A stretch of DNA of 64,000 nt, taken from the NCBI GenBank assembly GCA_902624195.1, contig CACNWV010000005.1, positions 1 through 64,000 on the forward strand, given 5' to 3'. Source of the stretch: an uncultured Pelagibacteraceae bacterium (GTDB lineage: Bacteria; Pseudomonadota; Alphaproteobacteria; Pelagibacterales; Pelagibacteraceae). Made by a program: the position numbers and the translations under genes. Below, one piece after another: positions 47,527 through 53,271 of this stretch. Under the pieces are notes generated by a model. It did no database searches. It was not told the DNA's origin and saw only the letters and a list, made by a program, of their open reading frames with translations. Each line of letters opens with the position of its first letter. The stretch's first letter is position 1.

Positions 47527-47904
47527 CTACTCGCTTTTTGGTTTAAATAATAGACAAATACCGTTGTTACAATATCGTTTTCCAGTAGGTTTTGGGCCAT
47601 CATCAAAAATATGGCCATGATGTCCGCCACATTTTTTACAGTGATACTCGGTTCTTGGGTATCCAATATGCATGTCAGTTTTTTCCTCAAAAACTCCAGG
47701 TAAAGAATCATAAAAAGATGGCCAACCAGATCCACTTTCGTATTTAGTTGAAGACTCAAATAACTTTGTTCCACACCCTACACAATGATAAGAACCTTCT
47801 CTTTTTTCTTGATTTAAAGGACTGCTCCCAGGAGACTCTGTGCCTTCCTGTTTTAGAACATAATTTTGTTCTGGAGTTAAATTTGGTTTCCAGTCTTTAA
47901 TCAT
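47527..47904 (-). CDS. msrB: Peptide methionine-R-sulfoxide reductase MsrB
   Basis: A 125-residue MsrB. Zn-binding CxxC pairs are at residues 41-44 (CVGC) and about 89-92 (CKKC); SGWPSF and the catalytic Cys in RYCNNG follow. No signal peptide, so cytoplasmic. It repairs methionine R-sulfoxide. It overlaps cysE by eight bases on the same strand. Confidence 0.95.
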
Positions 47905-48472
47905 CTTTTACTTTATCATCCACACCGTAAGGCCTAAAATTTCCTTTATTTTCTAATTTGACTGCTTTTGCGGGTATCCCAACCATTGTTGCATTCTCTG
48001 GAACATCTTTAACGACAACAGCATTTGCTGCTATCCTTGCGTTGTTTCCGACTTTAACGGGACCTATAATTTGAGCTCCAGATCCAATTACAACATCATC
48101 CCCTATTGTTGGATGTCTTTTTTCGTCACGTTGTTGCTCGCTATCAACACTTGGGGAACTGCCCCCTAATGTTACTGCATGATAAATAGTAACATTGTTT
48201 CCTATCTCAGAAGTTTCTCCAATCACAACACCCATACCATGATCAATAAATAAATTTTTTCCAATTTTTGCACCAGGGTGAATTTCTATGCCCGTGAAAA
48301 ACCTTACTGTTTGAGAAATAATTCGGGCGACTAGGTCGAATCCAGCTTTAAAAAAAAAGTGTGATATTTGGTGAAAGAAAACTGCTTTAACACCTGGATA
48401 GGTTAAAAGTATGCTGAGAATTGATTTTGCAGCAGGGTCTCTTTTTTTGATAGTCTCTAAAAAATCTTTCAT
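47897..48472 (-). CDS. cysE: Serine O-acetyltransferase
   Basis: A 191-residue hexapeptide-repeat acetyltransferase. The [28 protein letters not shown] and [14 protein letters not shown] segments are those of CysE, which makes O-acetylserine for cysteine synthesis. It lacks much of the N-terminal helical domain of the 273-residue E. coli enzyme, as in short CysE proteins. msrB follows with an eight-base overlap. Confidence 0.93.
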
Positions 48473-48530
48473 TATTGATATATAATGACTACTTGAAAAA
48501 TTTAAAGAAGAATATATAACGCCAGATTTT

Positions 48531-49454
48531 ATGAAAGCATATATTATTCACGAAAATGAAGCTTGGACTAAACCATTAGAATATCATTTGAAGGAATTAA
48601 AAGTAGATTTTGAAGATTGGCACGTAGAAAACGCTAAAATTGATTTGGGCAAAAATCCACCTGAAGGAATATTTTATAATAGAATGAGCGCTAGTTCTCA
48701 CGTTAGAGGACATAGATTTGCCCCAGAATATACATCGGTGATACTGAACTGGTTACAAAATCATAAAAAAAGAGTTATTAATGATAATAATGCATTAGCT
48801 CTAGAAGTAAGCAAATCTTTACAGTATTTGAAATTAAATGAGGCAGGCATTAAAACTCCAAATTCAATTTTTTGCTCTAGTAAATCGCAAATTATTCAAG
48901 CTGCAAAAAATTTTAGTAAACCTTTTATAACTAAACATAATAGAGCCGGTAGAGGTCTTGGTGTGCAACTTTTTAATAACAAAGAAGAGTTAGAGGTGTA
49001 TGTTAATGGATCTCTTTTTGAAAATTCAATAGATGGTATAACAATTTTACAAGATTATATTGATGCTGATCCAAAAGTAATTCATAGACTTGAATTTGTT
49101 AATTCTAAATTTTTATATGCAGTTCAGGTTGATGCTGGAAATTCTTTTGAATTATGTCCTTGTGATAGTAAAAATAACGTCTCTGAAAATATATCTAATA
49201 ATCCAGATGGTAATAAATTTATGATTCTAAAAAATTATACAAATCCAGATATTGAAAAATATGAGAATTTTTTGAAAAAAAATAATATTGAGATAGCTGG
49301 TATTGAGTACATCACAGATAAAAACGGCCAGAGATACACATATGATGTTAATACTAACACTAATTATAATACAGTTGCAGAAAAAAAAGTTAATAAAGAT
49401 GGAATGTTAGAGATAGCTAAATTCTTAAAAACAGAATTAAAAAACCTTGAATAA
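48531..49454 (+). CDS. RimK-like ATP-grasp ligase
   Basis: A 307-residue ATP-grasp enzyme. A pre-ATP-grasp domain (about 1-100), then [18 protein letters not shown] as the ATP-binding loop and DVNTNTNYN near the end for Mg. This architecture forms peptide-like bonds, such as alpha-glutamyl ligation by RimK. It is the first of three ATP-dependent ligase genes; gshA overlaps its end by eight bases. The substrate is unknown, but it could extend or modify glutathione or gamma-glutamylcysteine. Confidence 0.8.
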
Positions 49455-50790
49455 ATCTTTACACGAAGTAGTTCAAAATAAAGATCAATTAATTCAATAT
49501 TTCAAAGATGGGATTAAAAATAAAAATCAACTTAGAGTTGGTGTAGAACACGAGAAATTTCTTTTTAATAAAAATGATCTCAAGAGAATTGACTATTCCC
49601 AAATAAGGAAGTTATTTGAAATACTAACAGTAAGAGGGTGGGAGCTTCAATTTGAAAAAGATAAAGTAGTAGGACTAAAAAGAAATAATCAAAAAATTAC
49701 AACTGAACCAGGATTTCAATATGAACTGTCAGGAGCTCCATTTAAAAATATTCATCTAGTCTGCTCAGAAAATAGCTCGCACTTTAATGAGCTTAAAGAA
49801 ATTTTTGAAACAGCTAAAATTACAACTTCATCAATAGCATATGATCCTTTTAATAAATTACAGGAAATACCTAAGAGTCCAAAAGAGCGTTACAAAATTA
49901 TGACAAACGAAATGCCCAAGAAAGGTAAACTAAGCTTGGATATGATGTATAAAACTGCAGGCATTCAAATAAACTATGATTATACGTCTGAGGAAGATTT
50001 TGAAAAAAAATTTAAAATTGGAAATTATTTAACACCATTAACAATTGCTTTGTTTGCTAATTCACCCTTTAATGAAAATAAATTATCAGGTTTTTTATCT
50101 TACAGAGGTAAGGTTTGGCAAGAAACTAATAGAGGGGGAATTATGCCAATTACTTTTGAGAGAATAAATTTTGAAAAATATATTGATCATGTTCTTAACT
50201 ATCCAATATTATTTTTAAAAAGAAATGACAAATATTACTCTCCAAATGGTCAAACTTTTAATGACTACTTAACTGGAAATTTAAAGTATTTAAAAGGAGA
50301 GAGACCAACTGTTAAGGATTTTGAAAATCACTTAGGAACTATTTTTACTGAGGTTAGATTAAAACAAGTCCTAGAGCTTAGATCTTTAGATACATGTAAT
50401 TTTGGCTGCATCTGTAATGGACCATCTTTCTTCACAGGTTTAATTTATGGTTCTTTAGATGAAACTTATGAAATTATTAAAGATTGGAAAAAGGAAGAAG
50501 TATTAGATGCTTATTTTAATTCACCTAAATTAGGGCTTAATACTATGCTTGAAAAAAAAAAATTAATTGACTGGGCCAAAATATTTTTAGATCTTTCAAA
50601 AAAAGGTTTGGAAAGAAGAAATGAAATTAATAAAAGTGGAAAAAATGAAACTATTTACCTGAAACATATTGAGGAAATAATTAATAATAAGAAAACAAGA
50701 GCGGAAATGCTAATTGATCAATTTAATAAATCTAAAAACTTAAACTTTTTAATAAATCATGAAGAAAATTTTAGCTATTCAGGGTTCTGA
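49447..50790 (+). CDS. gshA: Glutamate-cysteine ligase (plant/alphaproteobacterial type)
   Basis: A 447-residue GCS2/plant-type ligase joining Glu and Cys, the first step of glutathione synthesis. LRVGVEHEKFLF near residue 30, GAPFKNIHLVC and the VRLKQVLELRSLD segment are typical. The start is TTG at 49447, with no ribosome site and an eight-base overlap with the ATP-grasp gene, so it depends on coupling; the next ATG would remove conserved residues. The end overlaps gshB by 32 bases. Confidence 0.88.
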   Translation: MNKSLHEVVQNKDQLIQYFKDGIKNKNQLRVGVEHEKFLFNKNDLKRIDYSQIRKLFEILTVRGWELQFEKDKVVGLKRNNQKITTEPGFQYELSGAPFKNIHLVCSENSSHFNELKEIFETAKITTSSIAYDPFNKLQEIPKSPKERYKIMTNEMPKKGKLSLDMMYKTAGIQINYDYTSEEDFEKKFKIGNYLTPLTIALFANSPFNENKLSGFLSYRGKVWQETNRGGIMPITFERINFEKYIDHVLNYPILFLKRNDKYYSPNGQTFNDYLTGNLKYLKGERPTVKDFENHLGTIFTEVRLKQVLELRSLDTCNFGCICNGPSFFTGLIYGSLDETYEIIKDWKKEEVLDAYFNSPKLGLNTMLEKKKLIDWAKIFLDLSKKGLERRNEINKSGKNETIYLKHIEEIINNKKTRAEMLIDQFNKSKNLNFLINHEENFSYSGF

Positions 50791-51676
50791 TCTTAAAAAA
50801 ATTAATATCAAAACTGATACAACTTTACTTTTGGCTAATGAAGCGCAGAAAAGAGGGTATAAAATTTATTATTATGAACCTCAAAATATTAGTTTTTTAA
50901 ATGGAAAAGTTATTGCTTTATGCAGACATATAAAAATCAATTATGGTAAAAAAAAGTTTTTTACATCACTAAAAACTATTAATTTCAATCTTGTAAATTC
51001 TAAAGTCATACTTATCAGAAATGATCCACCTTTTAACAATCGTTATTTATATACAACATTCTTGCTTAACCACATTTCTAAAAAAGTAAAAATAATTAAT
51101 CATCCATTTGCAGTAAGAAATATATCTGAAAAGCTATTTTCAATTAATTTTACAAAATATATGCCGCCAACTTTAATTAGTGAAAACCTTAAAGAGATTA
51201 AAATTTTTTTAAAAAAACATAATTCAGTAGTGGTGAAACCCATTAATGGTTTCAGTGGAAATAATGTTTTTCTGTTAAAGACTTTTGCAGCTGGAAAAAT
51301 TAAGAAACTTCTTAATACTCATAATCATCTATTTTTTCAGAAGTTTTTACCGGGGGTATATAAAGGGGATAAAAGAGTTTTCATAATAAAAGGTAAAATT
51401 GTTGGTGCAATATCTAGAGTTCCAAAAAAAGGAAGCATTCTTTCTAATATGAGTAAGGGGGCGGTCGCAAAGTTAACAAAACTTACAAAAAAAGAATTAA
51501 AAGCAAGTAAGGAAATTGGAAGATTATTAATTAAAAATAATATTTATTTTGCTGGCATTGATTTTGTTCAAGAAAAATTGATAGGTGATATTAATGTTAC
51601 AAGTCCTACGGGATTAGCTGCGTATAGAGATTTGTCTGGGAAAAACCTAGCGAAATTCTTTTGGAATAATATTTAA
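50759..51676 (+). CDS. gshB: Glutathione synthetase
   Basis: A 305-residue ATP-grasp glutathione synthetase. The NDPPFNNRYLYTTFLL segment, the VVKPINGFSGNNVFLL ATP-binding loop and the end NVTSPTGL (Mg and substrate binding) match GshB. It adds Gly to gamma-glutamylcysteine. The start lies inside gshA (32-base overlap). About 40 residues are Lys, typical of this AT-rich genome. Confidence 0.9.
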   Translation: MKKILAIQGSDLKKINIKTDTTLLLANEAQKRGYKIYYYEPQNISFLNGKVIALCRHIKINYGKKKFFTSLKTINFNLVNSKVILIRNDPPFNNRYLYTTFLLNHISKKVKIINHPFAVRNISEKLFSINFTKYMPPTLISENLKEIKIFLKKHNSVVVKPINGFSGNNVFLLKTFAAGKIKKLLNTHNHLFFQKFLPGVYKGDKRVFIIKGKIVGAISRVPKKGSILSNMSKGAVAKLTKLTKKELKASKEIGRLLIKNNIYFAGIDFVQEKLIGDINVTSPTGLAAYRDLSGKNLAKFFWNNI

Positions 51677-51811: not shown

Positions 51812-51830
51812 GGAACAAACTAAAATTGAA

Positions 51831-51888
51831 CCGGGTATTTGAACCATATTGTACACCTGGCATATGCCGAAGTACTAAAAAGGAGAAG
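51831..51888 (+). promoter_or_regulatory. SAM-V-like riboswitch over a ribosome site
   Basis: Between the terminator and the first leader ORF lies ATTTGAACCATATTGTAC, then AAGTACTAAAAAGGAG, matching the SAM-V pattern (ATTG-C/T-AC and AAGT-x-CT-A/G-AAAAGG). GTAC (51851-51854) can pair with GTAC (51872-51875). The AAAAAGGAG end is the ribosome site of the leader ORF at 51889, so SAM binding should block its translation. A SAM-II then SAM-V order is known from Pelagibacter. Confidence 0.75.
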
Positions 51889-51944: not shown

Positions 51945-51986
51945 GAAACAATAAGAGAAACAGTAAGGAGGAAAATCAATGGCTGA
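51939..51986 (+). CDS. Leader ORF 2 (15 residues)
   Basis: ATG at 51939 after ACGGAGAAAA; peptide MNETIRETVRRKING. Its TGA stop (51984-51986) lies eight bases inside metY, so a ribosome ending here could restart at metY, which also has its own AGGAGG site. It completes a chain of overlapping starts and stops. Confidence 0.45.
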   Translation: MNETIRETVRRKING

Positions 51987-53271
51987 TTTTAAACATCCGG
52001 AAACTATAGGCTTACACGGTAGTGATTATAGAGCTGATCCTACAACTACAGCCGTAGCAGTTCCAATTTACCAAACAACTTCTTATCAATTTAAAAATGC
52101 AGAACATGCTGCAAATTTATTTGGTCTAAAAGAATTTGGTAATATTTACACACGTATAATGAACCCAACAGTTGATGTATTAGAAAAAAGAGTTGCAGCA
52201 CTAGAAGGTGGGGTAGCGGCATTAGCAGTTGGTTCAGGTCAAGCAGCATCAGCAATGTGTATTCAGAATTTAGCACAAGCTGGAGATAACGTTGTTGCTT
52301 CAACTGACTTATATGGAGGTACAGTAAACTTATTCAAAAATACTTTAAGGCAACAAGGTATTGAAGTTAGATTTGCAGATCCAGCAGATCCAAAGAACTT
52401 TGAAAAAGTAACTGATGATAAAACAAGAGCTTACTACGGCGAGTCTTGTCCAAATCCATACCTTCGTGTGTTTCCAATTAAAGAAGTTGCGGATATCGGT
52501 AGAAAAAAAGGTATACCTTTAATCATCGATAACACAGCTTCACCAGTAATTTGTAAACCCTTAGCTCATGGAGCTGCGATCGTGATGCACTCTTTAACTA
52601 AATATATTGGTGGTCACGGAACTTCAATAGGTGGAATAATTGTTGATGGTGGAAACTTTGACTGGATTAAAGACAGAAAAAGACAACCATTAATAAATGA
52701 GCCTGATCAAAGCTATGGTGGTGCAATATGGGCAGATGCAGTTCCACAACTAACAGGGGCAAACATTCCTTTTGTAATCAGAGCAAGAGTGGTTTTATTG
52801 AGAGACTTAGGTGCTCCATTAAGCCCATTTAATGCTTTCCAAATTATTCAAGGTCTGGAAACAGTTGCTCTCAGAATGAAACAACACTGCAGCAACGCAG
52901 AAAAAGTTGTCTCATTTTTAGAAACACAAAAGAAAGTGAAAAACGTAATCTACCCTACTAATCATCAAGGTGAAATTAAAGAGAGAGCCAAGAAATATAT
53001 GCAAGGTGGCTATGGTTCTTTAGTTGGAATGGATTTAGGTACTAGAGAAGCTGGTGCAAAGTTTATTGATAATTTAAAGATGTTATATCACGTTGCTAAT
53101 ATTGGTGACGCTAGAAGTCTAGCAATTCACCCAGCTACAACAACGCACAGTCAATTAGACGATGCAGCATTAGCAGCAGCAGGTGTAACGCCAGGTTATG
53201 TGAGATTATCGGTTGGTATTGAACATCCCGACGACATCATCGCAGACATTAAACAAGCTTTAGCAGCTTAA
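51979..53271 (+). CDS. metY: O-acetylhomoserine sulfhydrylase (MetY)
   Basis: A 430-residue PLP enzyme of the Cys/Met metabolism family. The PLP lysine is K208 in HSLTKYIGGHGT, and GSGQAASAM holds the cofactor phosphate. It makes homocysteine from O-acetylhomoserine and sulfide for methionine synthesis. A strong AGGAGG ribosome site lies eight bases before the ATG. SAM-II and SAM-V-like elements upstream lower its expression when SAM is plentiful. Confidence 0.95.
   Translation: MADFKHPETIGLHGSDYRADPTTTAVAVPIYQTTSYQFKNAEHAANLFGLKEFGNIYTRIMNPTVDVLEKRVAALEGGVAALAVGSGQAASAMCIQNLAQAGDNVVASTDLYGGTVNLFKNTLRQQGIEVRFADPADPKNFEKVTDDKTRAYYGESCPNPYLRVFPIKEVADIGRKKGIPLIIDNTASPVICKPLAHGAAIVMHSLTKYIGGHGTSIGGIIVDGGNFDWIKDRKRQPLINEPDQSYGGAIWADAVPQLTGANIPFVIRARVVLLRDLGAPLSPFNAFQIIQGLETVALRMKQHCSNAEKVVSFLETQKKVKNVIYPTNHQGEIKERAKKYMQGGYGSLVGMDLGTREAGAKFIDNLKMLYHVANIGDARSLAIHPATTTHSQLDDAALAAAGVTPGYVRLSVGIEHPDDIIADIKQALAA

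Follow-up and report, generated by a model that had tools for sequence, protein, structure and literature searches.

A RimK-like ATP-grasp ligase family, independent of gshA and gshB and in some lineages found beside sulfur amino-acid genes

The gene directly preceding gshA and gshB in a SAR11 bacterium encodes an ATP-grasp ligase (here called LIG) that is independent of the glutathione genes and, in several families, lies beside genes of sulfur amino-acid metabolism. The gene is conserved and under selection, its ATP-grasp residues are intact, and its sulfur-gene neighbourhood is repeated in other families. We tentatively propose, with slightly less than even confidence, that LIG is a carboxylate-amine ligase with a role in the metabolism of sulfur amino acids or thiols, separate from glutathione, and that one of its substrates is a sulfur amino acid. 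The window, i.e., the whole 64 kb stretch of DNA that was analyzed, belongs to a genome of 0.965 Mb; the named relatives closest to it are uncultured Pelagibacteraceae of the SAR11 group. The following features are located in and around the ligase chain:

47527 to 47904, minus strand: msrB, methionine-R-sulfoxide reductase (Pfam, NCBIfam)
47897 to 48472, minus strand: cysE, serine O-acetyltransferase, divergent from LIG (NCBIfam)
48473 to 48530, no strand: intergenic gap of 58 bases between the divergent genes cysE and LIG
48531 to 49454, plus strand: LIG, uncharacterised ATP-grasp ligase, 307 aa, ATG start (Pfam, NCBIfam, alignment, dN/dS)
49146 to 49172, plus strand: residues 206-214 of LIG, family signature loop (coordinates computed from the frame)
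49447 to 50790, plus strand: gshA, glutamate-cysteine ligase of the GCS2/plant-proteobacterial type, 447 aa, TTG start (Pfam, NCBIfam)
50759 to 51676, plus strand: gshB, glutathione synthase, 305 aa, ATG start (Pfam, NCBIfam)
51824 to 51888, plus strand: SAM-V riboswitch in front of metY (71.1 bits, gathering threshold 41)
51979 to 53271, plus strand: metY-type O-acetylhomoserine (thiol)-lyase, PF01053 (Pfam, NCBIfam)

The three overlapping ligase genes at 48531-51676 reported in the preliminary description were recovered, all on the plus strand and with overlaps of 8 bases (LIG/gshA) and 32 bases (gshA/gshB). The window gshA and gshB are ordinary glutathione genes: gshA matches Pfam GCS2 with 173 bits, its best NCBIfam model being glu_cys_lig_pln (403 bits, below the cut-off of 463), while gshB matches Pfam GSH-S_N (103 bits) and GSH-S_ATP (144 bits) and passes NCBIfam NF003573 (279 bits, cut-off 272). 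cysE passes both NF041874 (230 bits, cut-off 150) and TIGR01172 (223 bits, cut-off 211). Because LIG holds the first place of the operon, opposite cysE, and overlaps gshA, it would be expressed together with gshA and gshB in the window lineage, and the promoters of cysE and LIG presumably both lie in the 58-base gap. The overlapping chain is found in six genomes of this lineage (the window, L012, and L013-L016); in L017 the sequence stops inside LIG. Since the SAM-V riboswitch stands before metY, this gene is separate from the LIG-gshA-gshB chain. In Ca. Pelagibacter ubique, metY is preceded by SAM-V riboswitches and, unlike cysE, goes up under sulfur limitation (PMC5069961).

To classify LIG, we compared it with curated families. 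It matches the RimK-like ATP-grasp domain of Pfam with 27.4 bits (cut-off 21), while it remains below every curated NCBIfam cut-off, the top models being rimK_fam (TIGR00768, 44 bits, cut-off 143.4) and LysX (TIGR02144, 35.4 bits, cut-off 275.6). We defined the family by an alignment of 34 relatives (A2) that share F-x-L-C-P and a second nearby cysteine. K95, K135, E259, D272, and N274, which we take to be the nucleotide and metal residues, are invariant in 34/34 relatives, and the alignment to RimK places them on the corresponding RimK positions. With the domain above the Pfam cut-off and the lysine, acidic, and asparagine positions conserved, LIG falls into the ATP-grasp superfamily. The A2 profile matches LysX (PDB 3vpb, E 1.4e-11) and RimK (PDB 5zct, E 4e-11) among solved structures. 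Homologs of the same length are present in other genomes, and dN/dS was 0.04-0.05 in all five comparisons within the window lineage. Therefore, with same-length homologs, low dN/dS, and invariant ATP-grasp positions, LIG is a real gene, and with dN/dS at about 0.04 the purifying selection on it is strong. The AlphaFold model of LIG, built from an alignment of six near-identical rows, reached a pLDDT of 37, too low to be of use.

Judged by its profile scores, LIG represents a new, mainly alphaproteobacterial and widespread family that passes no curated NCBIfam cut-off. With the window genome counted in, it was detected in 7/61 relatives, 9/247 Pelagibacterales, 29/385 Alphaproteobacteria, and 4/398 Pseudomonadota; the sole match among 369 Gammaproteobacteria was the already known G685. 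Six of 72,556 plasmid records carry a homolog, five of them from Pediococcus acidilactici and one from Spirosoma, and no match was obtained in 50,697 phage records or in viral contigs. In the LIG tree, the ten SAR11 rows group together in a single clade (100/100). The Pediococcus protein pairs with the gammaproteobacterium G685 (98/96, with long branches flagged in the tree), which suggests gene transfer. A deeper sister group, 26-28% identical and supported with 100/100, comprises the proteins of G642 (L076) and Spirosoma (L048), in which the LCP loop is kept. A literature search returned nothing on the family, most subscription journals being outside its reach.

The signature loop has the consensus F-x-L-C-P-A-D/E-x-C in most LIG relatives. 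F206-x-L208-C209-P210 is invariant in the alignment, C209 being present in 34/34 rows, while a cysteine at position 214 is found in 32/34, all but the window and G012. The second loop cysteine of G012 and of the window lineage is located at position 211 instead of 214. This stretch of LIG falls outside the alignments to RimK and LysX. The two putative functions of the loop cysteines are metal binding or redox sensing, either of which they might serve.

Beyond the overlap itself, the preliminary description had suggested that LIG could make a modified thiol tripeptide or a related gamma-glutamyl compound. While the RimK-like ligase and its overlap with gshA-gshB stood, a dedicated role in glutathione or in its modification was not supported. 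Among 44 LIG carriers, gshB exceeded the cut-off in 36 and GCS2 in 37, and both a GCS2-type gshA and gshB were absent at these cut-offs from six (completeness in brackets): G012 (66%), G015 (81%), G935 (92%), G980 (88%), G986 (88%), and G1002 (87%). In the Pelagibacterales, LIG occurs without gshA and gshB in 6/14 of the carriers analyzed, including one with a completeness of 66%. Incompleteness could account for some of these absences, and hardly for those of all three members of genus g460. Within the Pelagibacterales, LIG was detected in 5/209 GshA-positive and 4/38 GshA-negative genomes (Fisher P 0.034), a result that is not relied on because three of the four GshA-negative carriers belong to one genus.

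The gene order led to the same picture. gshA-gshB directly follow LIG only in the window, L012, and L013-L016. In G012 and G024, LIG occupies the same cysE/metY site with gshAB not adjoining, and in G026 metY directly follows a cut-off LIG at this site; gshAB of G024 and G026 are located on other contigs. Outside SAR11, no gshA or gshB homolog was found beside LIG in any of the 22 loci read. Thus, LIG is neither confined to genomes with gshA and gshB nor embedded with them in a neighbourhood conserved across lineages. In sister genomes without LIG, a glyoxalase/VOC-like gene sits exactly in the LIG slot before gshA in 7/7 genomes read (GshA 81-84% identical to that of the window; an eighth, G006, left out), the assignment being based on a Pfam match for one of the seven. 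In these SAR11 sisters (L094-L100, e.g., L094:5598-5993), the VOC-like gene encodes 130-132 aa and shares 8 or 11 bases with gshA; its product may be a thiol-dependent enzyme. In G024, a VOC-like gene is located directly before LIG; apparently, different lineages have each lost one of the two genes from this slot. The position of LIG beside gshAB is accidental and local to a few ocean bacteria. Given this local and lineage-limited adjacency, the LIG product is probably another cysteine-type compound and not a modified glutathione; a product containing cysteine or glutamate is plausible.

Outside SAR11, the genes flanking LIG were analyzed in 22 loci, comprising 20 of the 28 non-window alphaproteobacterial carriers together with G685 and G642; the remaining eight alphaproteobacterial carriers were read for gene order only. 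In SAR11 genus g1, LIG is accompanied by a divergent cysE and a downstream metY. All three genomes of family f89 carry, in order, LIG, an assimilatory sulfite reductase, a 1-Cys peroxiredoxin, and an O-succinylhomoserine sulfhydrylase, with a CysG-type methyltransferase before the latter in G352. In all three genomes of family f136, an O-succinylhomoserine sulfhydrylase, OsmC, and LIG adjoin or overlap, and in G685 (family f191) lipoyl synthase, LIG, and cystathionine gamma-lyase follow each other, the last two overlapping. A PF01053 gene was located within 1 kb of LIG in at least 3/22 GTDB families vs 0.12 expected (P about 0.0002) and within 5 kb in at least 4/22 vs 0.34 expected (P about 0.0004), both post hoc figures from a rough model based on copy number and genome size, in which a family scores positive if any one genome has the gene near LIG, copy numbers were taken from a single representative of each family (f1 and f89 excepted), weaker copies elsewhere may be missing, and two of the four positive families were already known when PF01053 was picked.

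In 18/22 families, no PF01053 gene was found within 5 kb of LIG among the matches listed, and in many families the adjoining genes are unrelated to sulfur (squalene/phytoene synthase, queuosine synthesis, abhydrolases, DctP, Cpn60, GcrA). A conserved SDR-LIG-PadR order was observed in all three genomes of family f69. SAR11 carriers outside the cysE/metY site of g1 showed no clear sulfur neighbours. Replication of the sulfur neighbourhood yielded no new lineage, neither in the Gammaproteobacteria (LIG in 1/369) nor in the order of G116, where LIG was present in 5/7 genomes, all of one family.

Other neighbours were observed as well. A Glu/Asp-type SDF symporter is located directly upstream of LIG in G274 and on the Pediococcus plasmids; the NCBIfam models nearest to these symporters are of the Dct/GltP type, below all cut-offs. 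On the P. acidilactici plasmid (L047:4083-6921; NZ_CP035153.1), the LIG homolog is preceded by genes for a Dct/Glt-type symporter and for a protein with a thioredoxin fold, while in Spirosoma amino-acid permeases are found downstream of the homolog. In G015 and genus g460 (L088, L089, L090 4296-6909, and L069), LIG comes right after two ORFs that resemble UmuD and UmuC by eye, perhaps marking a gene-turnover site. In G368 (L060:5962-8835), the gene directly upstream of LIG encodes a 957-aa protein for which neither Pfam nor NCBIfam gave a match at the chosen thresholds.

How LIG may act can be sketched from its family and neighbours. With good support from its domain, LIG is predicted to form an amide bond using ATP; a carboxylate would most likely be converted to its acyl phosphate before it is joined to an amine. 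A role in sulfur amino-acid or thiol metabolism is moderately supported. We infer that LIG joins cysteine or homocysteine to a second amino acid, perhaps an acidic one. The product would be a small cysteine-type peptide or amide, which might serve as a thiol or keep cysteine in a safe stored form, and LIG would act independently of glutathione. A more far-reaching version, which we regard as unlikely, is that the LCP-motif family makes an undescribed low-molecular-weight thiol (a cysteine dipeptide or amide, possibly a glutamyl-cysteine formed without GshA) that replaces glutathione in SAR11 without gshAB and provides the missing step before GshB in G274.

The genome of G274, a 1.3 Mb alphaproteobacterium with an estimated completeness of 100%, contains gshB and LIG (L121:7342-8283; L123:17805-18767). 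No GCS2 match was obtained, and tblastn and phmmer with the GshA of E. coli MG1655 and of the window gave no credible hit in stretches that overlap in part and total 1.38 Mb. The Dct/Glt-type symporter upstream overlaps LIG in this genome. If PF08886, which we take to be a third GshA class, is also absent from G274, LIG might be the glutamate-cysteine ligase that this genome otherwise lacks.

Several other functions were weighed against a sulfur-related ligase. LIG may instead join non-sulfur amino acids (e.g., glutamate or aspartate and another amino acid) into a compound used as osmolyte, store, or signal, in which case the sulfur neighbours would be incidental. The absence of a sulfur neighbour in most families is consistent with this, as are the Glu/Asp-type symporters upstream of LIG in G274 and Pediococcus and the permeases downstream in Spirosoma; however, sulfur operons occur in three families other than that of the window, two of which keep the arrangement across the genus while the third has overlapping genes, and PF01053 proximity exceeds expectation, so that we consider incidental neighbours rather unlikely. 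A tailoring of glutathione or gamma-glutamylcysteine by LIG, or the formation of a modified thiol tripeptide in the gshA-gshB pathway, would agree with the two overlaps, the same chain in six genomes, and the frequency of gshB and GCS2 among carriers. A high gshB frequency is usual among Alphaproteobacteria, though. The six carriers with neither gene over the cut-off, the location of gshAB elsewhere in G024 and G026, and the glyoxalase-like gene filling the same slot in sister genomes render tailoring quite improbable.

The modification of a protein or carrier, like that of the S6 tail by RimK or of the LysW carrier by LysX/ArgX, is suggested by LysX and RimK being the nearest solved relatives. 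We judge it highly improbable, as LIG scores far under both cut-offs (44 of 143 bits for RimK and 35 of 276 for LysX), a LysW-like C-terminus was seen in none of the short ORFs of the window and 120 neighbourhood loci, and the RimK/LysX alignments do not cover the LCP-loop stretch. Just as improbable is a glutamate-cysteine-type ligase, either replacing the enzyme that starts glutathione synthesis or making a terminal dipeptide thiol in carriers without gshAB. The presence of LIG and gshB in G274, which lacks a GCS2 or E. coli-type GshA match, the symporter overlapping LIG there, and the existence of carriers without gshA and gshB argue for it, whereas 37/44 carriers already possess a GCS2 gene and the searches in G274 covered two classes of GshA. 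To our knowledge, no ATP-grasp glutamate-cysteine ligase has been described.

SAR11 bacteria, which rank among the ocean's most abundant cells, lack assimilatory sulfate reduction and depend on reduced sulfur (PMC5069961). The sulfur-related ligase proposed here appears to follow sulfur amino-acid genes and not glutathione, and it persists without gshA and gshB; it may thus offer a concrete gene for a second thiol or cysteine-storage compound. The case also sets right an annotation that the operon position would invite.

Compared with known systems, LIG shares with GshB, the third gene of the chain, the ATP-grasp type and the overlapping arrangement; GshB nevertheless belongs to a different family, and its profile match to LIG is not significant (hhalign probability 1.2%). 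The 'alpha-L-glutamate ligase' WP_065124334.1 of the P. acidilactici plasmid, named by annotation, has no gsh gene among those listed in its 12.8 kb plasmid stretch; it is 44% identical to LIG and has the same loop. LysX/ArgX (PDB 3vpb, 1uc8) are similar to LIG in length and give the best profile match among solved structures, whereas no LysW-like partner was seen near LIG and no lysine/arginine cluster was found in the annotated LIG loci. RimK and RimK-like proteins (TIGR00768, PF08443; PDB 5zct, 4iwx) have the ATP-grasp domain and the lysine, acidic, and asparagine positions in common with LIG. In contrast to these proteins, LIG stays well below the RimK family cut-off, and the F-x-L-C-P-A-[D/E]-x-C loop is its own.
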